The translations under genes and the position numbers were made by a program. A stretch of DNA of 24,666 nt, taken from a virus. Below the pieces are notes generated by a model, which saw nothing but the letters and a program-made list of their open reading frames with translations, did no database searches and was not told the origin of the DNA. Below are positions 1 through 23,435 of the stretch, in pieces (position 1 is the stretch's first letter; every line of letters starts with the position of its first letter). The stretch is from the IMG/VR virus record IMGVR_UViG_3300049491_000833, positions 1-24,666 of that record; one strand, 5' to 3'.

Positions 1-610
1 GGGTAGGGGGAAGGGGGAGCGCGCCCGCGCGCACGTGGGGGGTATCGGGTACCCCTTCGGATGGGTATGCGGTGGGCGTCGGGTCGGGTTCCGGATACCC
101 TTCCGGTTGGGTATCGGATACCCCTTCGGTTGGGTATGGGGTGGGGTCTCCGAAGTCGGCCCGGAGGGTATCCACCACGCGCATAACCGCTGGTCGGGTG
201 TGGTGCGGTAACTCATGCAACGGCAGGCGTGACAGCTCCGCCAAGAAAGCAGCGCGCAGTGTGGGTGACACGATCTGTTTCGCGTCTTCCCTCAGGCGCA
301 ACATCACCTTCGGTTGCTTGTACACCCCGTCATTTCTGACCATCGTGCGGACCAACACTTCTTCGGTGTCACGGTCGACGACGAGGAACCGGGACTCTGC
401 CAACACGTCTAACTGTTCGTCGAGTTGGTTTGGGGTGAGTCCTGCGGCGTTGTTCGCCCACCGTCTGACTCTCAGTGGGATGAGGCCGGCGTGTGACAGG
501 TCTGGTTGGGACAGGATGAACAGGTAGGCGCGTTGGGGGCCCTGTTCGAGGGATGCGAAGTCGGGGTCCCGCCAAATGTCGGCCATGATGCGGCCGTGTG
601 TGCGGGGCAT
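1..610 (-). CDS. Replication-type winged-HTH phage protein (partial, C-terminus beyond window)
   Basis: This reading frame stays open to the left edge, so at least 203 residues are present and the end is missing. It starts MPRTHGRIMADIWRDPDF, and the body (about residues 1-135) has features such as RAYLFILSQPDLSHAGLIP and VRNDGVYKQPK. These resemble the replication-initiation/helix-turn-helix proteins of early regions in actinobacteriophages, which are thought to bind the origin and help load the replisome. After about residue 155 comes a proline-rich, repetitive segment with YPTEGVSDT-like units, encoded by the repeat array at 40-137. The ATG at 610 has no good ribosome site but overlaps the stop of a 13-codon minicistron (TAATG), which suggests coupled translation. 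The family match is from memory of the motifs. The replication role is inferred from family and position. Confidence 0.75.
   Translation of the reverse strand, partial: MPRTHGRIMADIWRDPDFASLEQGPQRAYLFILSQPDLSHAGLIPLRVRRWANNAAGLTPNQLDEQLDVLAESRFLVVDRDTEEVLVRTMVRNDGVYKQPKVMLRLREDAKQIVSPTLRAAFLAELSRLPLHELPHHTRPAVMRVVDTLRADFGDPTPYPTEGVSDTQPEGYPEPDPTPTAYPSEGVPDTPHVRAGALPLPPT
40..137. repeat. Iteron-like array of three 29-bp repeats built on GGGTATC
   Basis: Three similar 29-bp units lie at 40-68, 86-114 and 109-137; the last two overlap by one GGGTAT element. Counting both strands, GGGTAT/ATACCC occurs at 40-46, 63-68, 94-100, 109-115, 117-123, 132-137 and, outside the units, 166-172, with a GGGTACCC variant at 47-54. 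Orientations alternate, giving a GGGTATC-G-GATACCC palindrome at 109-123. The array lies inside the replication-type gene, as the lambda origin lies inside gene O. An origin function is inferred. Confidence 0.6.
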
Positions 611-1094: not shown

Positions 1095-1358
1095 CTAGCG
1101 GCGTAGGAATGTGGCGATGTCGATGTTGAACACTCGGGTGAATACCACCAACTCTTCGACGTTCACCCGCCTTGGTGCGCGCCCTGGGATGGGGTGTTCA
1201 ATTTTCCACAGCGAACTGGACCCAATCGGGCAGCCCTCCTCGGCCATTAGTGCGGCTAGCCGGCGGTAGGACCAGCCTCGTTTCTGTCGTTCCTTCGCTA
1301 TCCGGCGGCCAACAGCAAGTTCGACGTCGATCGCGGCACATTCACGGACCCGTCCCAT
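1095..1358 (-). CDS. HTH (XRE-like) early regulatory protein, 87 aa
   Basis: The N-terminal half contains a Cro/CI-type helix-turn-helix: VGRRIAKERQKRGWSYRRLA (helix 1-2), then MAEEGCPIGSSSLWKIE (turn and recognition helix). A short tail follows (EELVVFTRVFNIDIATFL), as in single-domain XRE regulators. The start is ATG at 1358, overlapping the stop of the Gp3-like gene (TGATG); a GTG at 1361 is also possible. It is probably made from the same leftward early message and may tune early or late transcription. Its operator is unknown; the paired repeats just downstream of it are one candidate. Confidence 0.75.
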   Translation of the reverse strand: MGRVRECAAIDVELAVGRRIAKERQKRGWSYRRLAALMAEEGCPIGSSSLWKIEHPIPGRAPRRVNVEELVVFTRVFNIDIATFLRR

Positions 1359-2389
1359 CACAGCCTGCCTAGTTGTTGGTCGAGGAGGTCACCCAACTCG
1401 GTGAGGACACCGTCAGTTCCGGTGACGAGTTCGTCGAGTACTCCGGCGGTGGTGGCGGCTTCTTTCAGGGCGGTGACGACCCGGGCCGACGCGGTGGCCA
1501 GTGCTTTGGCGGCGATCGTGTCCGGTGACATTTGCCCGGAAGGGTCCGAGGTCGGTAAGGGTGCCTTCGAGGTGGGGACTGCCCCGGGTGTGCGGGCTGG
1601 TTTCGCGGTTAGTTCGGGCATGGAACCGGCTGGGAGCGCTTCCCGGTCGGTTCTTGTCGGGAGGGCTTCCGCGAATGACCTGGGGCCTTGTCCGGTCAAG
1701 ATTTGGCGCATGGACAGGTCCACGTCGATGACCACAACGGGGAACTGTTTGGTTTGCTGCTGGTTGGTGTGCACATCGATGACTTTCCGTTCCCGCTGTT
1801 CCAACCGGAGCCGGGCCGGGAGGACAGTGCCCGATTCTGCTGCGGCCTGCAGTAGTCGGGCGGTGTCGGAGATTTCTAGGGCGGCGTAGTAGGAGCCGGT
1901 GTCGAACCGCCACACACCCAAACCTGCGAGGTCGGGGAGGATGACGTTGATCCGGGTTTTCGGTTTGCACGCCTTCCCTGTCTGGGCGGCCTCAGCGCGT
2001 TCCACACCGCCCTCTGGGCACAGGCAGGGTGATTGCCTCAACTGTTCGGTGAAACCGTCACAGCGGCGCACGCAGCCTCCGCCAGACCACATTTCGTACC
2101 ACTGGTTGATGGGCTCGCCGGGTGGGATGACGATGGGGAGTTCGGTGACGTCTGTGACAACTTCCCACTGCCGCCCGGTGCCGTCGTCCTCTAACTGTCC
2201 CGGCGCCCACGCGTGGACGGTGCCGCCGAAGTGCTCGGCGACAGAGTCGGCGGCCACACGAGACCCGGTTGTCAACCGGAAGGTGTCCAGTTTCGTTGGA
2301 CGCTTACTGCCGGACTTACTAAGTCCCATTGCGCCGATGCGGATGCGGCCGATCTGGCGGCCTTGTTTCTGCAAATCAAGTAAAGGCAT
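1358..2389 (-). CDS. Gp3-like phage early protein with Cys cluster (343 aa)
   Basis: The product starts MPLLDLQKQGRQIGRIRIGA, with KRPTKLDTFRLT nearby, and has WSGGGCVRRCDG followed by SPCLCPEG. The cysteines are C106, C110, C122, C124 and C141, a likely metal-binding or structural cluster. This architecture matches the large actinophage family that I recall being grouped with phiC31 Gp3, the recombination directionality factor for serine integrases. The C-terminal third (about 245-343) is low-complexity, then helical. An AGGGAG site lies 8 bases before the ATG. It sits between the Cas4-like nuclease and an HTH gene on the leftward early message. Because the phage uses a tyrosine integrase, a role in DNA metabolism seems at least as likely as a directionality role. 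Confidence 0.6.
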   Translation of the reverse strand: MPLLDLQKQGRQIGRIRIGAMGLSKSGSKRPTKLDTFRLTTGSRVAADSVAEHFGGTVHAWAPGQLEDDGTGRQWEVVTDVTELPIVIPPGEPINQWYEMWSGGGCVRRCDGFTEQLRQSPCLCPEGGVERAEAAQTGKACKPKTRINVILPDLAGLGVWRFDTGSYYAALEISDTARLLQAAAESGTVLPARLRLEQRERKVIDVHTNQQQTKQFPVVVIDVDLSMRQILTGQGPRSFAEALPTRTDREALPAGSMPELTAKPARTPGAVPTSKAPLPTSDPSGQMSPDTIAAKALATASARVVTALKEAATTAGVLDELVTGTDGVLTELGDLLDQQLGRL

Positions 2390-2422: not shown

Positions 2423-3430
2423 TTAGGCGGCTTGCTGGGCGGGTTCGCCGAGGATGCGGATCATCAGAAGTGACTTCGCCCCGATCCCCTTGATGGACAT
2501 CAGCTGCGCGTCGGTCAGGGCGAGGACTTCCTCGAGGGTCCGCAACCCGGCGGCAATCAACGGGCCCCGTGCCCGCCCCAGGTCGTCGATGTCCTCGATG
2601 AGCGGGGACGGCTGAGAACCGTCCGGGAGTGGCTTGTACAAAGCTTTCGTGCGGAGCTTCGCGCCCTTCCCGGCCCGAACAACCGCCACGCGGTGCAAAA
2701 AGCGGTCGAACGCCTCTTGTTCCTGCTCGGGGGTGTCCACGATTTCGAACAGCTTGTACCCATCGGGATAGTCACAGGACAGGTGCAGCACAGCCCTGCC
2801 GTCAACCTCTGGCATTGGTGCTTTTTGGCCGTTCGGAAGCCACACCTCATCGCAACGCCGGTACCCGACGAGTTGCTCGCCGATGGTGTCGTCAAGGTTC
2901 TTCCCCGACTTGATATCCACAAGCAGACGCCGGCGCATCGCCGGGAACACCATGACGCTGTCCAGCGTGCCGGCGTAGCCGTAGATGACGTTCGCAACGG
3001 TGGCTTCGGACATTTCGATGACCGGTTCGTGGTCACACAAGAACGCCACGTAGCCGTCGACGAACTCGTCAACTTCGGCCAGTTCTTCGGCGTTCAACTC
3101 GTCGAAAGAAGGCAACGGGAGGTCGAGGTTCAGGTTCTCGGCCATGTTGTGAATCCGGGACCCCAGGTCGCGGCGGTAGTTCCGGTACCTCTCCGAGGCG
3201 TTCGCGATCAGGTTCTTCGCGGCGTCCGGGCCGGCCTCGTTCAAGGTCATGCCGACGAGGTCGTAGTGGTCGACGGCGAAATCTGCGGCCAGGCGGGCGG
3301 CCCACCCGGTCAGGTAGGCCTTGTTCGTGGTCGCCCCGATGATGGTCGTGACCGAGTCGTACACCAGGTCGGGGTTCGCGGGGTCTACGTAATACCTACC
3401 GTCATGGGCGTCGACACGCCCGACTGTCAC
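2423..3430 (-). CDS. Cas4/RecB-like PD-(D/E)XK exonuclease with C-terminal HhH (335 aa)
   Basis: The nuclease core has an upstream His (SRIHNMAE, H94), a first acidic residue in YAGTLDSVM (D157), the D-x-K motif in LLVDIKSGKN (D172, K174) and a Q-x3-Y motif in EQLVGYRRCD (Q186, Y190). This is the order seen in RecB/Cas4-type nucleases. The four cysteines of iron-sulphur Cas4 proteins are not evident. The C-terminus (about 305-327, LTDAQLMSIKGIGAKSLLMI) is a helix-hairpin-helix DNA-binding element. Family members process DNA ends in phage recombination and replication. The GTG start at 3430 overlaps the stop of the Cro-like gene (GTGA), so both belong to one early leftward operon. Confidence 0.8.
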   Translation of the reverse strand: MTVGRVDAHDGRYYVDPANPDLVYDSVTTIIGATTNKAYLTGWAARLAADFAVDHYDLVGMTLNEAGPDAAKNLIANASERYRNYRRDLGSRIHNMAENLNLDLPLPSFDELNAEELAEVDEFVDGYVAFLCDHEPVIEMSEATVANVIYGYAGTLDSVMVFPAMRRRLLVDIKSGKNLDDTIGEQLVGYRRCDEVWLPNGQKAPMPEVDGRAVLHLSCDYPDGYKLFEIVDTPEQEQEAFDRFLHRVAVVRAGKGAKLRTKALYKPLPDGSQPSPLIEDIDDLGRARGPLIAAGLRTLEEVLALTDAQLMSIKGIGAKSLLMIRILGEPAQQAA

Positions 3431-3762
3431 GGTGACACCTGGGCGGTGAGAAGAGTGTTGGCCACGGTGTTTCTCCTTGTGTTGTGTTGTCTGGTTTCCG
3501 CAACTGTTTCGCGGATAGCGGGCATGACGAATAGGTCGTCGGCTGGCACGTCCAACCGATCTGCGATCAACAGGGCGACGGTTCGTCGGCAGCCGTTGAT
3601 TTCTGGGCGGTTCGTGGAGCGGAGCGCGGAGATGAATTGGTGCGCAACCCCTGCGTGCGCAGCAAGTTCAACTGTTCCGACCCCCGCCCACGCCATGGTG
3701 TCGATCAGGTGTTGCTTTGACTTCAAACGCGCCGTTTCACGCTTTCGCTGTTTGTGTCCCAT
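3427..3762 (-). CDS. Cro-like HTH protein, first gene of the leftward early operon (111 aa)
   Basis: A basic N-terminus (MGHKQRKRETARLKSKQHLI) is followed by a helix-turn-helix around residues 30-72 (VGTVELAAHAGVAHQFISAL, then a helix ending in LIADRLDVPADDLF). It is transcribed away from the repressor-like gene at 3973, the classic place for a Cro-type protein. The ATG follows an AGGGGTGG ribosome site by 5-6 bases. The promoter at 3815-3843 and palindrome at 3792-3803 lie directly upstream. It probably blocks repressor synthesis and commits the phage to lytic growth. This role is inferred from position and fold. Confidence 0.75.
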   Translation of the reverse strand: MGHKQRKRETARLKSKQHLIDTMAWAGVGTVELAAHAGVAHQFISALRSTNRPEINGCRRTVALLIADRLDVPADDLFVMPAIRETVAETRQHNTRRNTVANTLLTAQVSP

Positions 3763-3791
3763 CTGTCCACCCCTGGAAGTTGAGTGCGCTT

Positions 3792-3812
3792 AGTTGCGCA
3801 ACTGTCTTGCGG
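3792..3812. promoter_or_regulatory. Candidate operator of the immunity region
   Basis: A perfect 12-bp palindrome, AGTTGCGCAACT, lies at 3792-3803, followed by a half-site-like CTTGCGG at 3806-3812. It falls just downstream of the -10 element of the leftward promoter, so a bound repressor would cover the transcription start. The TTGCG core recurs in the direct repeats between excisionase and integrase at 5440-5473. Confidence 0.5.
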
Positions 3813-3814
3813 GA

Positions 3815-3843
3815 AACCTACATGTCAATGCACTCACGGTCAA
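3815..3843 (-). promoter_or_regulatory. Leftward early promoter
   Basis: Read on the minus strand, TTGACC (3843-3838) and TAGGTT (3820-3815) are separated by exactly 17 bases. This fits the actinobacterial TTGACN/TANNNT consensus. It faces the Cro-like gene, whose start is at 3762, and the operator palindrome lies over the predicted start of transcription. It should drive the early genes from the Cro-like gene through the replication gene. Confidence 0.55.
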
Positions 3844-3972
3844 GAAATTACACCCATGTGTTTTGACTGCCCCACACCCGTTGGTGTTCCGTGGGGGCAT
3901 CATGCGGACGAGAACCCCCATGGGGGAACCCGTTGTGGTCCGTTGCTCACAGTCAGCAGAGGTGGTCTGGAC

Positions 3973-4359
3973 GTGCCCCCGAAACCCTCGCAGAATCAAC
4001 GCGTGGACCCACTCGCCCGATTGATCCGGGAACGGATGCAAGAACGCGGATGGAACTACGAAGACGTCGGACGCCAAGGCAACATCCCCGCCAGGACTGT
4101 TCTGCAGTTGGCTAACCCCAGGGCACCAAGGAAACAAACACCACGCCCGAAAACGTTGGAAGGCCTCGCCGCCGGCCTCCACATGAGTCTGACCCTTGTG
4201 CAGCGCGCAGCTGCCGAATCCGTGGGCTACAAGTTCACCGACGCCCCCACCTCACACACCCGCACAGTGGTATCGGTGATGGGGGAACTCGACGAGGACC
4301 AGCAACGCCGAATCGCCGAGTTCGTGCTGTCCATGGCCGAGTCCTGGAAGAAGCCGTGA
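3973..4359 (+). CDS. Immunity-repressor-like HTH protein (128 aa)
   Basis: The product has an N-terminal XRE-type helix-turn-helix (LARLIRERMQERGWNYEDVG, then NIPARTVLQLA, about residues 12-70). It has a short C-terminal helix region ending ELDEDQQRRIAEFVLSM. Its size and position, divergent from a Cro-like gene and next to the integration cassette, match the small single-domain repressors of actinobacteriophages. The frame is open upstream to 3784, but that stretch crosses the operator and is Cys-rich and unlike the family. The GTG at 3973 with AGAGGTGG upstream is therefore preferred. It would maintain lysogeny by repressing the leftward promoter. The second HTH gene at 4589 is an alternative candidate. 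Confidence 0.65.
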   Translation: MPPKPSQNQRVDPLARLIRERMQERGWNYEDVGRQGNIPARTVLQLANPRAPRKQTPRPKTLEGLAAGLHMSLTLVQRAAAESVGYKFTDAPTSHTRTVVSVMGELDEDQQRRIAEFVLSMAESWKKP

Positions 4360-4446: not shown

Positions 4447-4608
4447 GTGCAGGTAAGAGTCGCGGGGGAAGAGTTGGGTGTGCGCATGGCGCTAGTGAGG
4501 AGGGACGACACAACAGTGTTGCTCCTGGCGCCAGGCGTCATGACGTCCACGGATATGGCGATTTTGGGTGCCCTGCTCGGGGACGTGCATGAAAGAGACC
4601 CTGACTGA
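4447..4608 (+). CDS. Small protein of unknown function in the repressor cluster (53 aa)
   Basis: The product begins MQVRVAGEELGVRMALVRRD and continues with a hydrophobic stretch, TTVLLLAPGVMTSTDMAIL. The GTG start has an AAGGA site five bases upstream (GGAAGGACGAGG). The 3' end overlaps the next HTH gene by 20 bases, so the two are probably co-translated. No family is recognised. A start further upstream is possible, because the frame stays open to a TTG at 4372. It may be a small modulator of the neighbouring regulators, but nothing in the sequence shows this. Confidence 0.5.
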   Translation: MQVRVAGEELGVRMALVRRDDTTVLLLAPGVMTSTDMAILGALLGDVHERDPD

Positions 4609-4918
4609 CCTTGTGCTGCGGCGACGTAAAGAGCTGGGGATGAGTTTGCGTGCAGTCGCCGACGCCTCCGGTGGGGCGTTCACCTCCTCAACGGTGCACA
4701 GCATTGAACATGCGAAGTTCGGGAAGGTGAACCCGGACGTCATCGCAGGGTTAGCGAAAGCCCTTCGCCTGCCGGAGAAAGACGTTCGGGAAGCGGCCGG
4801 GCTGCAACAGTTCAAACCGCCCCCGTTCGTCCTCCCTGCCCGGGCGAACGAGTTGAACGCCCGCGAACGCGCCCTCGTCATCGAACTCATAGGGACCTTG
4901 TTGGCAGCCCATGACTGA
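4589..4918 (+). CDS. Second HTH (XRE) repressor-like protein (109 aa)
   Basis: A clear XRE-family helix-turn-helix occupies about residues 5-70: LVLRRRKELGMSLRAVADAS, then TSSTVHSIEHAK (recognition helix), then VIAGLAKALRLPEKDV. The tail has a helical ELNARERALVIELIGTLL segment like the end of the repressor-like protein at 3973, so the two may be paralogues. The ATG at 4589 is preceded by CGGGGA. It lies in one rightward cluster with the small genes on either side, and may be a co-repressor or the immunity repressor itself. Confidence 0.7.
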   Translation: MKETLTDLVLRRRKELGMSLRAVADASGGAFTSSTVHSIEHAKFGKVNPDVIAGLAKALRLPEKDVREAAGLQQFKPPPFVLPARANELNARERALVIELIGTLLAAHD

Positions 4919-5175: not shown

Positions 5176-5415
5176 TTAGGAACCTTTCGGGCGCCCGACC
5201 GGTTTACGGCCCCTGGTCAACCAGGCGTCCAAATCTGCGCGTTTGAACCTCCACCGGCCCTTCGCGGCGTCGGACATCTTGTGCCCAACCAAACCGGACT
5301 TCTCATCAGCGGCGAGGCGGGTCAACCAGTAGGTGGAGATCCCGAGGTAGGCCGCGGCGTCGGATGACCGCAGCCACGGGTCGTCCGTGGTTGCTTTGTC
5401 ATGTACTTTCAGCAC
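5176..5415 (-). CDS. xis: Excisionase-type winged-HTH protein (79 aa)
   Basis: The product carries the MerR-like excisionase fold: PWLRSSDAAAYLGISTYWLT (helix-turn-helix, about residues 13-32) followed by a wing and GRWRFKRADLDAWL (about 53-66). Family members bind and bend attachment-site DNA to steer a tyrosine integrase toward excision, and often repress the integrase promoter. The GTG at 5415 has GGAGGG six bases upstream. It is divergent from the integrase, with both starts about 78 bases apart, and the two ATTACTTGCGG repeats lie between them. Confidence 0.75.
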   Translation of the reverse strand: MLKVHDKATTDDPWLRSSDAAAYLGISTYWLTRLAADEKSGLVGHKMSDAAKGRWRFKRADLDAWLTRGRKPVGRPKGS

Positions 5416-5439
5416 AGCAAACCCTCCGCACTCGTTGTT

Positions 5440-5473
5440 ATTACTTGCGGAAACACTACATCATTACTTGCGG
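5440..5473. repeat. Direct repeats ATTACTTGCGG between xis and int
   Basis: Two identical 11-bp copies lie at 5440-5450 and 5463-5473, 23 bases apart start to start, which is about two helical turns. They lie upstream of both divergent genes. They could be excisionase or repressor sites; the CTTGCGG core also occurs at 3806-3812 in the immunity operator region. Confidence 0.6.
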
Positions 5474-5492
5474 ACCGGGAAGGGGCTGTCAG

Positions 5493-6623
5493 GTGGGTTG
5501 GCCAGAGCCACATAGAGGTGAATGGCGAGGTGTCTACCGAGACGCCAACGGGAAACGCAGGAAATCGACAACAACGTTCCGGTACAAAGCTCAAGCCCGT
5601 GAATGGGCAGAGTCCCAAGAACGCGCAGCCAAAACGGGCCGCGACCCCGACGCCGGCCGCATCTTGTTGAAAGTATGGATCAGCCGTTGGGAAACCGGGA
5701 GAGTAGTCGAGCGCACCACCCAGGCCTCCGATCAAGGTCGTATCCGCGAAATCGTTGACCGCTTCGGCGACACCCCACTCGAGGACCTGTCACCAATGGC
5801 CATCTCGACGTGGTGCAAACAGCAATCAAAGGACGGGCGGGGCCCGGCCACCGTCGCGAAGTACCACCGGCTCCTCTCACGCATTCTGAACGACGCCGTC
5901 CAGGAACGGCTAATCACGGAGAACGTCGCGAAGTTCGTGAAGGTCTCCCTACCGACCACGCACAAGGAGACGTACCTGACGCGGGGGCAGGTCGACGAGC
6001 TGATGCGACTGTCCGAGTCCCCCGTGGTGATTCGCACCCTGGCGTACACAGGCCGTAGGTGGGGGGAGTTCGCCGGCCTACACAAGGGCGACGTCGATTT
6101 TCTGCGCGGCGTGATGACGGTGTCCCAGACGGTGACGGAGGTGTCCGGGAAGTACATGATCAAGCCGTACCCGAAAGGCCGCCGCCCGATCCAGGTCCCG
6201 GTCCCTCAGCACGTGCTGGACGCCCTCGCCGGGCACATGGCGCAGACTCCGCCGATCGTGTGCGGCTTGGAACGTGAGGACGGGAAGCCCCACAGGTGCT
6301 CTGGCCTGATCTTTCACACCGACCGCGGGAAACCCCTCTCACGCTGGGTGTGGCCCAGGACTCATCTTCTTCCACACCTGAGCGCTGCCGGGTGCCCACC
6401 AGAGACCACCACGCACGACCTTCGGCACACCTACGCGTCGTGGCTGATTCAGGACGGCGTGTCCCTACGTGTCGTGCAGAAGCTGCTTGGGCACAAGTCG
6501 ATTGTGACGACGGAGCGGTACTCACATTTGGAGGCCGACACAGGTTTGGATGCGGTCCGGAAAGCCCTGGACACCACATCTGACCCCACAGATGGAGAGT
6601 CTGAGGGGCAGTCTTTCGCCTGA
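5493..6623 (+). CDS. int: Tyrosine-family phage integrase (376 aa)
   Basis: All catalytic parts of a tyrosine recombinase are present: Arg I in AYTGRRWGEFAGL (R189), a lysine in KPYPKGRRPIQV (K224 or K228), HDLRHTYASW (H308, R311), and LGHKSIVTTERYSHL (H334, nucleophile Y343). The N-terminus (RGVYRDANGKRRKSTTTF) is an AP2-like arm-binding domain, and residues about 60-150 form the SAM-like core-binding domain. Length is typical. GTG at 5493 is chosen because AGGGG lies seven bases upstream and the protein then starts as relatives do; the frame is open further upstream into the repeat region. It recombines attP at 6649-6698 with a tRNA-Thr gene in the host. Confidence 0.93.
   Translation: MGWPEPHRGEWRGVYRDANGKRRKSTTTFRYKAQAREWAESQERAAKTGRDPDAGRILLKVWISRWETGRVVERTTQASDQGRIREIVDRFGDTPLEDLSPMAISTWCKQQSKDGRGPATVAKYHRLLSRILNDAVQERLITENVAKFVKVSLPTTHKETYLTRGQVDELMRLSESPVVIRTLAYTGRRWGEFAGLHKGDVDFLRGVMTVSQTVTEVSGKYMIKPYPKGRRPIQVPVPQHVLDALAGHMAQTPPIVCGLEREDGKPHRCSGLIFHTDRGKPLSRWVWPRTHLLPHLSAAGCPPETTTHDLRHTYASWLIQDGVSLRVVQKLLGHKSIVTTERYSHLEADTGLDAVRKALDTTSDPTDGESEGQSFA
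6570..6590 (+). repeat. Candidate P-arm integrase arm-type sites inside the int 3' end
   Basis: GACACCACA (6570-6578) and CTGACCCCACA (6580-6590) are two near copies of the CTGACACCACA repeat found on the other side of the attP core at 6788-6811. They lie in the last codons of the integrase. Arm-type function is inferred. Confidence 0.4.
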
Positions 6624-6787: not shown

Positions 6788-6835
6788 CTGACACCACACC
6801 TGACACCACACCTGTACTGCGAGGCGTGGTGTCAG
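6788..6835. repeat. Candidate P'-arm sites: CTGACACCACAC twice plus an inverted copy
   Basis: CTGACACCACAC occurs in tandem at 6788-6799 and 6800-6811, and the inverse GTGGTGTCAG at 6826-6835, which overlaps the stop codon of the fibre gene. Similar copies occur at 6570-6590 on the other side of the core. The arrangement is that of arm-type sites bound by a tyrosine integrase. Confidence 0.55.
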
Positions 6836-7848
6836 GCGGGCAGGTCGTCAGAGGTGAGCGTCCACGCCTTCAAGTTCCGGAAGCGTGCGGTGTAGTTGTA
6901 GGCGAAGAATCCGGGGTAAAGGTTTTGGGTGCCACCGGGAGACTTGTAGTGCGTGGAGTACCGCCGAACGCCGTCGATGTAGCAGACGACGCGGCTGCCA
7001 CCGAGGACCATCCGCACCTTGTGCCAGTCGTTGGAGAGCGTCGTAAATCCGAACGTCCCCCACGATGTACTAGCCAAAGCCTCGACCCGCCCCGCGCTGC
7101 GCCCGTCGAGTCGAAGCACGATGCAGTTGTCATTCACCGACGCATCAAACAGCCCGACCCCTGTGATGGAGTTGGTGTCGTCGGCGCCGAGAAGTTCGAC
7201 CTCGACCTCGACAACGATTTGGATTGCGGGGTCGGTGATTGGTGTCGTCACAGGTGCGCACCTACGCCACTGACCCCCACCGGGCGCCAGTTGCACCTGA
7301 CCGGTAACAAGAGTTGTCGTGCCACTCCCCGCGCTTGTGAGCCCGCTAGTTGTATCGAGCGCGAGGTTGTGCGAGGCGTTCCAGGTGAACCCGGCACCGC
7401 CGGCGTGCGTGTGGTCGCCCGCTGACACAGTCCCAGCCCCGGCACCGACGTCTTTCGTCGCTGCGTCACCCAGCCCAAGGTTGTCCCGGGCGGTTACGGC
7501 GCTAGCCAGGTCGGACAGGTTGTTGGATTTGAGGGGGTAGATCGAGTGGTCTGGTGCGTCCGCGCCGTCTGCACCGGCCGGGCCCGTGTCCCCTTGGGGG
7601 CCCTCTGGTCCTTCGGGACCTTCTGGGCCCTGAATGCCCTGGATTCCCTGCGCACCCGCGGCCCCAGCGTCACCCTGTGGGCCCTCCGGGCCTTCGGGGC
7701 CTTCATCCCCAGGCACACCCTGCACCCCTTGAATCCCCTGGATGCCCTGGATTCCTTGGATGCCCTGCGCCCCGGTGTCACCCTGCGGCCCGTCCGGGCC
7801 CGGTATCCCAGGTGGGCCTTCCGGGACATACACAATTTCGGTTGTCAC
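6832..7848 (-). CDS. Collagen-like tail fibre with C-terminal LamG/ConA-like domain (338 aa)
   Basis: Residues 11-97 are 29 uninterrupted Gly-X-Y triplets (GPP, GIP, GIQ, GPE and others), which form a collagen-like trimeric stalk. A tail-fibre linker follows (SNNLSDLASAVTARDNLGLG, then DAATKDVG), and then a beta-rich domain with WHKVRMVLGGSRVVCYIDG, typical of a concanavalin/LamG sandwich that may bind a surface glycan. GTG at 7848 has GGAGG eight bases upstream and overlaps the previous stop (GTGA). The product is a likely receptor-binding fibre. It lies beside attP, with the lysis genes and an opposite-strand block separating it from the tail genes. It may be exchangeable. Confidence 0.8.
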   Translation of the reverse strand: MTTEIVYVPEGPPGIPGPDGPQGDTGAQGIQGIQGIQGIQGVQGVPGDEGPEGPEGPQGDAGAAGAQGIQGIQGPEGPEGPEGPQGDTGPAGADGADAPDHSIYPLKSNNLSDLASAVTARDNLGLGDAATKDVGAGAGTVSAGDHTHAGGAGFTWNASHNLALDTTSGLTSAGSGTTTLVTGQVQLAPGGGQWRRCAPVTTPITDPAIQIVVEVEVELLGADDTNSITGVGLFDASVNDNCIVLRLDGRSAGRVEALASTSWGTFGFTTLSNDWHKVRMVLGGSRVVCYIDGVRRYSTHYKSPGGTQNLYPGFFAYNYTARFRNLKAWTLTSDDLPA

Positions 7849-8219
7849 AGTGTTACCTCCGGGGAGACACGAATTTTGCCCATCGCCCAACGTTCACGGC
7901 CATACGGGCCGTCAAGCTCAACCTGGTAATCCCCCACCGTCCACGTCCACGGCGTGGAGTCCGCATGCCCAACGGAGAGAGTGATCCAAATGTCTGTGGG
8001 GTAATCCGGGTCATCCACAACGCTGACTGTGATGTCAGCCAACAGGTCACCGGCCGGTTTCTGGCCCTTCCGAACCTGGCATTCACCCGTGAAATCGGCC
8101 GCATCCAAATCGACCCCGGCCAAATGTCGGCGCCACCCGTGAGACCAATCCGCGCCCTGAGGGACCAACAAGTCCTGTTCCACGTGGGCCGCCAGGTCCA
8201 CAACCCGCAGTTTCGGCAT
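7845..8219 (-). CDS. BppU-N-like baseplate/fibre-attachment protein (124 aa)
   Basis: The product starts MPKLRVVDLAAHVEQDLLVP and follows the pattern of phage proteins with a BppU N-terminal-like domain: a strand with 'VPQGADWSHGW', a central ADFTGECQVRK, then WTVGDYQVELDGPYGRERW and a final GKIRVSPEVTL. In other phages such domains join receptor-binding fibres to the baseplate. The stop overlaps the start of the collagen-like fibre (GTGA), supporting a joint role as adaptor. The ATG at 8219 has only a weak ribosome site, and a start further upstream in the open frame cannot be excluded. The family call is by pattern. Confidence 0.55.
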   Translation of the reverse strand: MPKLRVVDLAAHVEQDLLVPQGADWSHGWRRHLAGVDLDAADFTGECQVRKGQKPAGDLLADITVSVVDDPDYPTDIWITLSVGHADSTPWTWTVGDYQVELDGPYGRERWAMGKIRVSPEVTL

Positions 8220-21834: not shown

Positions 21835-23435
21835 GGTTTCCACCCGTAAAACTCGTGATAGACCTGCCCCAGCGGGTCAGTCTTGTCGAGCTGCCACTTA
21901 GCGTACGCCTCGGCGTAACCTTCCGCCACGGACGATTGACCGTAGGCCGTGTTCGCGTCCTTCGTCATCAGCCAGAACAGTTCGTCCTGTGTGTTGGTGA
22001 GCATCGTGACGGGGTTCCGCGTGTCCGAGCGGAGCCGGTCAACGATGTGGCCCATCTCGTGGATGTAGCTGTAGAAGTCGATGTTTGGTTGGGTCTGGGA
22101 CAGCTCGCCTCGGGCGAGCCGCGGGTTGACATAGATCGCTACCGGAAGCGCCGGCGAGGGGTAGACGTAGGCCATCACCACACCCTGGGGTTGTGGTGTG
22201 AAGTGTGCGTTGTCTTGAACCAACATCCCTATCGGCGCACCGACCAGGTCGTCGGGGAGAGTTGTCAACGCCTGGTCGAACCCTCGCAGGACTCTGGAGG
22301 TTTGTTCCACTGTGAGGTCGACTTCGATCTCCACTCGACGGTTGCCGTTCGCGAACGCTTGAAGTGCCGTCGTTGGGGCGGGGTTTCCGTCCTCGTCGAC
22401 GCGGAATCTGGTGACACGTTCCGGGTCGGGCGTCCAACTCCCCGCCTTGTACGTCTTGGACAGTTTGGGCTGTGCCATCTTCTTGGCGTGCCGTATCGCA
22501 GCTGCGGACTGGGCCTGTGAGCCGCGGTCGCTGATGATGCCGTTGCGGGCCAACCTGCGGCGTTCCACAGCTGCGGCGTGACGCGCCTCAGCCTTGGATT
22601 GGTCGGCTCGTTGGGCTGCGGTGGTGGACGGTTGCGCCTTTTTCGCTTGTGCTTTGGTGGTGATGTCGGGGCGGGGCGATGAGGACCTTCTGCACCGCGG
22701 GTGCGACAAGGGGTAGGCGCGGGCTTCTTCGACGGTGACTATTTTTCCGTTGGCAGGATTCGGGTCTTGGTGTGACGTCCACCCACACGCGGCGCCGTCA
22801 AAGATTTCCATGTATTTGATGCCGAACGCGTCGGCCTGGTCGAAGCCACCGATCTGGTGCACCTCCGCGGTGCGGGTGCGGATCAGCATGTCGGTGTAGT
22901 CGGCCAACGTGCGGGTGGAGCCGTCTTTGTAGGTGACTGCTGTGATGCCCTTCGACGCCAAATCTTGGGCGAGATCCTTGGCGGCCTGGGCGGGTATGGT
23001 GCCCCTGATCAACCGGTCGGCGATGCGGTCTTTTGCCAGATACCGGATTTGGTCCTTCGCGGTTTGTCTGACATGGGTGGTGGCACTCAGCAGGTCTTCG
23101 AACGTGTCTTGGACAACCAAGTTCAAAGCATCGACAGCGATTTGGGTGAACACCGGGCTTGTTCCTGCGGCCGTGGTTGCTGCCGTGGTGGCGCCCAACG
23201 TGTACGCCTCCGGGAGGCCCCGCTGCGCCCATCTGAGGGCTAGTTGGTCCGCGGCTGCCATGAGTTCGTCAACGGTGGCTTGCAGTTCGCGTAAACGGGC
23301 TAGGCGGGCTGTGCGGGGCATCGTGGGCCACTCCGCGATGATGCGGGCCTGTTCGGCGTCCAACCGGTCCTGGGCGGCCTGGAAAGTTCGCCGGATCGCC
23401 TGTGAGGTGGCATCCAAACCTGGCACATCAGGCAC
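21831..23435 (-). CDS. MuF-like minor capsid protein with C-terminal HExxH zinc metallopeptidase domain (534 aa)
   Basis: Residues 1-255 are MuF-like: a long helical N-terminus, then RTRTAEVHQIGGFDQADAFG, IFDGAACGWTSHQDPNPANG and the terminal HPRCRRSSSP. A charged Ala/Lys/Arg linker (about 256-325) leads to a separate C-terminal domain with YIHEMGHIVDRL (H459, E460, H463) and SVAEGYAEAYAKW (E505, a possible third ligand). This order resembles anthrax-lethal-factor-type zincins. MuF proteins are carried in the head; MuF fused to toxin domains is a known class. GTG at 23435 follows AGG by eight bases. The peptidase could mature the capsid, or act in the infected cell or on a competitor. Confidence 0.8.
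   Translation of the reverse strand: MPDVPGLDATSQAIRRTFQAAQDRLDAEQARIIAEWPTMPRTARLARLRELQATVDELMAAADQLALRWAQRGLPEAYTLGATTAATTAAGTSPVFTQIAVDALNLVVQDTFEDLLSATTHVRQTAKDQIRYLAKDRIADRLIRGTIPAQAAKDLAQDLASKGITAVTYKDGSTRTLADYTDMLIRTRTAEVHQIGGFDQADAFGIKYMEIFDGAACGWTSHQDPNPANGKIVTVEEARAYPLSHPRCRRSSSPRPDITTKAQAKKAQPSTTAAQRADQSKAEARHAAAVERRRLARNGIISDRGSQAQSAAAIRHAKKMAQPKLSKTYKAGSWTPDPERVTRFRVDEDGNPAPTTALQAFANGNRRVEIEVDLTVEQTSRVLRGFDQALTTLPDDLVGAPIGMLVQDNAHFTPQPQGVVMAYVYPSPALPVAIYVNPRLARGELSQTQPNIDFYSYIHEMGHIVDRLRSDTRNPVTMLTNTQDELFWLMTKDANTAYGQSSVAEGYAEAYAKWQLDKTDPLGQVYHEFYGWKP

Follow-up and report, generated by a model that had tools for sequence, protein, structure and literature searches.

Putative initiator-binding iterons within the replication initiator gene of an actinobacterial phage

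The initiator gene and its surroundings

The window (the whole stretch of viral DNA analysed here, 24,666 bases) begins inside a gene of the minus strand, the 3′ end of which is lost at the contig end. The gene, its predicted domains and its early-operon neighbours are as follows.

2–610, minus strand: predicted replication initiator gene, 5′ part (203 codons, ATG at 610)
152–610, minus strand: N-terminal winged-helix domain (codons 1–153; AlphaFold2), presumed to bind the iterons
2–151, minus strand: proline-rich linker, predicted to be unstructured (AlphaFold2), bearing the repeat array
2423–3762, minus strand: early-operon neighbours upstream of the initiator, namely an exonuclease (2423–3430) and a Cro-like regulator (3427–3762)

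In a search of the PHROG profiles, the encoded protein matches three families only: phrog_3171 (replication initiation protein; E = 1.4e-44, residues 1–193), phrog_8064 (E = 1.7e-34) and phrog_25711. These matches identify the gene as encoding a phage replication initiator of the phrog_3171 family. The initial annotation had described a replication-type DNA-binding protein, a description borne out by the phrog_3171 match and the predicted winged-helix domain. The N-terminal domain was modelled by AlphaFold2 with a mean pLDDT above 90 over residues 11–150 and with a helix–helix–strand–strand wing order, and residues 154–203 were modelled with pLDDT values of 59–77 and without secondary structure. 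All repeats but the first in the gene fall within this latter segment, which the initial annotation had described as proline-rich and dispensable-looking. The nearest viral structure models to the N-terminal domain include a replisome organizer (E = 1e-7), and a model annotated as the N-terminal part of lambda GpO is a weak match (E = 0.15). Sequence and fold searches of the PDB with the initiator gave no significant relative, Pfam and NCBIfam gave no domain in it, and no phage relative of the window was found at the nucleotide level. The C-terminal parts of complete relatives of the initiator match helicase-loader or primosomal families.

Several other features of the window were recorded. 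Two distinct repressor-like helix-turn-helix genes are present on the plus strand (3784–4359 and 4568–4918), both of which match phrog_12831 (transcriptional repressor). A gene for a Gp3-like protein (1358–2389, minus strand; PF18897, recombination directionality factor-like) is located among the early replication genes and stands apart from the integrase gene (5364–6623). A presumed tail-associated protein (6832–7890, minus strand) contains collagen-like Gly-X-Y repeats (GPEGPEGPQGDAG...). A tRNA search of the window found none.

Geometry of the repeat array

Seven exact copies of GGGTAT or its complement ATACCC are found at 40–45 (+), 63–68 (+), 95–100 (−), 109–114 (+), 118–123 (−), 132–137 (+) and 166–171 (+), with a GGGTAC variant at 49–54. 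This cluster of seven elements and one variant was noticed in the initial annotation and is confirmed at positions 40–171. In synonymous-codon shuffles of the initiator gene, which preserve the protein and the codon usage, the mean count of GGGTAT is 1.2 and the maximum is 6, and a count of at least 7 is reached in 0 of 20,000 shuffles; similarly, none of 1,500 such shuffles contains any 6-mer with seven copies. The elements use all three reading frames and both orientations, and thus the repeated entity is the DNA and not a peptide. The initial annotation had described 29-bp units, and the segments 40–68 and 109–137 are indeed near-copies (within a 37-nt repeat, 109–145 is 92% identical to 40–76), but the true period of the array is 23 bp. 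Its basic unit is a 20-bp dyad, ATACCC-N8-GGGTAT, for which the expected number in shuffles of the window is 0.00. The elements of the array and the tracts beyond it, in gene order, are as follows.

166–171, plus strand: half-site GGGTAT, 34 bp ahead of the array in the gene sense, within the stretch that codes for the final helix of the N-terminal domain
118–137, no strand: putative iteron (dyad) ATACCCAACCGAAGGGGTAT, in the 23-bp register
95–114, no strand: putative iteron (dyad) ATACCCAACCGGAAGGGTAT, in the 23-bp register
72–91, no strand: degenerate unit GAACCCGACCCGACGCCCAC, which fits the 23-bp register
49–68, no strand: putative iteron (dyad) ATACCCATCCGAAGGGGTAC, in the 23-bp register
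40–45, plus strand: half-site GGGTAT, final unit of the 23-bp register
20–37, no strand: alternating purine/pyrimidine CG tract after the iterons, retained in the relatives L056 and L057
1–19, minus strand: beginning of a C-rich pyrimidine tract (CTCCCCCTTCCCCCTACCC in the gene sense), with four C5 runs in complete relatives

The three dyads conform to ATACCC-N8-GGGTAY. In gene coordinates the half-sites stand at >440, >474, <488, >497, <511, >543, (<557) and >566, which places the dyads at 474, 497 and 543, the degenerate unit at 520 and the half unit at 566. Most of the repeats lie in the proline-rich coding segment, where all had initially been placed; the exception is the 166–171 copy in the domain helix. 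A half-site 34 bp ahead of the array is likewise present in the relative L056. The four C5 runs found at the pyrimidine tract in complete relatives are of the G-quadruplex type on the opposite strand.

The spacings between half-sites, 14 bp for convergent and 9 bp for divergent pairs, are exactly conserved in L002, L056, L057, L058 and L060, which at 55–78% protein identity are the closest five among the viral relatives examined. The complete dyad ATACCC-N8-GGGTAT is present in eight of 259 loci, which comprise the window copy and its closest relatives. In a scan of all viral contigs, the 20-base form ATACCC-N8-GGGTATCNGATACCC was found in five contigs, in every case within the initiator gene family. 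A looser 18-base motif gave seven extra viral-contig matches; the stretches fetched for these showed no initiator gene, and the matches are taken as chance.

Repeat clusters across the initiator family

Homologues of the initiator are present in 309 phage records. Collections of phages, plasmids, viral contigs and genomes yielded 257 homologous genes; 147 remained without near-copies, and 128 of these have at least 220 codons. A 17-member alignment was too divergent for scanning and subgroup alignments were used. The densest repeated 7-mer of each gene was compared with synonymous shuffles (p ≤ 0.05). By this test 56 of the 128 non-redundant initiator genes contain a significant cluster, compared with three of 122 unrelated control ORFs from the same loci, and 55 of the 56 clusters are located in the same linker. 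An ACCC/GGGT core is found in 36 of the clusters, both orientations in 37 and more than one frame in 39. In the other 72 genes the exact 7-mers fall short of significance, partly because their arrays are short or degenerate. ACCC/GGGT exceeds the codon null only in the first 120 nt past the N-terminal domain (0–120 nt). In one unrelated control ORF beside the relatives, a 7-mer is repeated 11 times within 200 nt.

Beyond this core, the repeat flanks vary by lineage, with ATACCC in the window and AACCCTTC, GGGGTCA, TAACCCC, AACCGTT and others in phrog_3171 relatives. Repeat types cluster on the N-terminal-domain tree, with 32 changes compared with a shuffled mean of 57; the shared descent of a single gene accounts for part of this clustering. 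The commonest spacing across the family is 12 bp, or four codons; spacings that are not multiples of three also cluster, with a period of ∼12 bp.

This four-codon spacing and the low complexity of the linker would suit an origin of the repeats as a by-product of a repeated proline-rich peptide. Such a by-product would hardly account for elements that occupy three frames and both orientations and are lost on synonymous shuffling, or for the conservation of 14-, 9- and 23-bp spacings that are not codon multiples. The initial annotation had proposed a search in relatives for conserved repeats with changed protein sequence, and its outcome is favourable: the same DNA word is translated as EGF in one orientation and as NPF/NPS in the other. 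We regard a peptide-level cause, which the frame and synonymous-codon tests contradict, as extremely unlikely.

Selection on the DNA itself could also reflect sites for another protein, either a phage repressor acting in a stoperator-like manner or a host factor, and the phage does encode several helix-turn-helix regulators. However, GGGTAT occurs only once more, at 22992, in the remaining 24.5 kb of the window, so that there is no dispersed operator set. In the relatives, the density of the dominant 7-mers is 40 per kb inside the clusters and 0.12 per kb in the rest of the loci; since the 7-mers were selected for clustering, the second figure alone carries information. Dispersed operator sites were rejected on the scarcity of copies outside the array and of 7-mers outside the clusters. 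Furthermore, in diverse phages the repeats accompany the initiator gene, and repeat type follows the initiator tree; we consider recognition by a protein other than the initiator to be very improbable.

Alternatively, the initiator may bind these sites mainly to control expression, by autoregulation or as a roadblock to the early transcript, with the origin located elsewhere. Many initiators autoregulate, and the array lies in an early operon behind a Cro-like gene. Against this, the dominant 7-mers are nearly absent upstream (four occurrences in all within the 300 bp ahead of each of the 56 genes), and a phased array with a GC dip or a pyrimidine tract behind it suits an origin better. A role chiefly in expression control is thus judged unlikely.

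The GC dip was measured in the 60 nt that follow the ACCC/GGGT zone, where the family average is 0.58 compared with 0.65–0.67 expected. The dip is strong in L009; in the GC-rich close relatives L057, L059 and L029 the array has no clear AT-rich zone behind it. The window contig itself ends just past the repeats, before the region of any AT-rich zone. Among the viral loci, five of 15 downstream contig ends fall within ∼60 nt of one another just past the iterons (L002/L055, L058, L066, L155 and L241; 542–602 nt from the gene start), and the window also ends there. The break at the C5 tract probably reflects a drop-out in sequencing or assembly, because the ends coincide and complete relatives carry four C5 runs at this point.

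Many relatives contain a second element conserved at the DNA level, GGTTACGTAAGTACGGAAGG, farther downstream in the initiator gene. It is located at about gene position 640–680 in L012, L017, L053, L161 and others. Between the iterons and this element lies a pyrimidine-rich stretch (CTCCTACTCC type); in four of the genes measured this stretch is 83–89% C+T and the element stands ∼60 bp past the last iteron. GGTTACGTA is present in 27 genes, compared with about one expected, and 22 of 24 GYVS peptides are encoded by exactly GGTTACGTAAGT, with an expectation of 0.08% each. Of the viral contigs with the 20-mer GGTTACGTAAGTACGGAAGG, 52 of 53 (near-copies included) carry it within the initiator family. 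The sole fetched contig with the element outside a recognized initiator ORF is L306, which may contain a divergent initiator or a fragment. Complete members of the window clade mostly have C5 runs in place of GGTTACGTAAGTACGGAAGG, and the window ends before that point.

The repeats, the selection on them at the DNA level, their geometry and conservation, their position in the gene and the clustering of their types on the initiator tree were all computed from the sequences.

An origin within the gene and comparison with known systems

We consider it highly likely, on the basis of these sequence comparisons, that the repeats are initiator-binding iterons which form the core of the lytic replication origin of the phage inside its initiator gene. 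The initial annotation had put forward such an in-gene origin as a candidate, and the family match, the placement in the predicted linker and the repeats of the relatives lend it support. The phage is actinobacterial, and the same layout recurs in many related phages. We infer an origin function that would proceed through binding, dimerization, opening of the strands and recruitment of a helicase, as follows. Each 20-bp dyad would be bound by the N-terminal winged-helix domain, probably as a dimer, and initiators aligned at 23-bp steps (about two helical turns) would build an O-some-like complex. The DNA directly past the array, a pyrimidine tract followed in relatives by a segment that is AT-richer on average, would then open, and the C-terminal part of the initiator would recruit a helicase or helicase loader. 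The coding constraint on the iterons would be light because they occupy an unstructured interdomain linker.

A broader reading, which we advance tentatively as possible rather than probable, is that a large initiator family without detectable similarity to lambda O maintains an in-gene origin across actinobacterial phages, with an ACCC/GGGT core and lineage-specific flanks that diverge together with the DNA-binding domain. In many lineages a second module, consisting of the ∼60 bp pyrimidine-rich gap and then GGTTACGTAAGTACGGAAGG, would serve strand opening, priming or helicase loading; as part of the same tentative reading, this module would be previously undescribed. No report of iterons for phrog_3171-type initiators was found in the open-access literature searched, and the origins of temperate actinobacteriophages (of Gordonia, Mycobacterium, Streptomyces, Rhodococcus and others) appear to be unmapped for this initiator family. 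Exact candidate sites are now given in scores of phages and can be tested by synonymous mutation, an approach applied earlier to lambdoid iterons (PMC7466680). Lineage-specific iterons would imply replicons that are compatible with one another, for use in actinobacterial genetics.

The authors who described the extrachromosomal mycobacteriophage prophages Miko, Rachaly and Jeeves suspected an origin in or beside repA, citing lambda O (PMC7157519). We tried Miko RepA as a characterized homologue and rejected it, as it gives no match to the A2 profile at E ≤ 10; being undetected by the profile of the window family, it is a different initiator despite the common annotation name.

Iteron plasmids resemble the present system in that arrayed initiator sites adjoin the initiator, and plasmid iterons usually lie outside the gene. 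Plasmid sites bind monomers (PMC5043065), in contrast to the dyads within coding sequence in the window. Within the phrog_3171 family, relatives bear iterons at the same place as the window.

The closest parallel in layout is lambda, with which the initial annotation had already compared the array. In both, iterons lie inside the initiator gene past the DNA-binding domain and in several reading frames, and the initiator belongs to an early operon behind a Cro-like gene. Each iteron of either system is an inverted repeat of ∼18–20 bp with CCC...GGG half-sites, at a spacing of 20–24 bp (PMC5043065, PMC7466680). The lambda iterons are annotated as 18 bp (ATCCCTCAAAACGAGGGA) at a spacing of 20–24 bp and are described as bound by O dimers (PMC5043065); the window has 20-bp inverted repeats at a spacing of 23 bp in the linker after the DNA-binding domain. 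The parallel was upheld when lambda O was run as a positive control: it passes the same cluster test, its iterons occupy several reading frames, and the GC content drops beyond them. The two systems differ in the half-site (ATACCC in the window and ATCCCTC in lambda) and in the tract directly past the array, which is C-rich/CG in the window clade and AT-rich in lambda. The window initiator and lambda O, which matches phrog_277 and 12 others, share no PHROG; on this comparison of sequences the initiator falls outside the lambda O family, and the resemblance is one of layout. The window would provide an in-gene origin whose initiator does not belong to the O-type sequence family.
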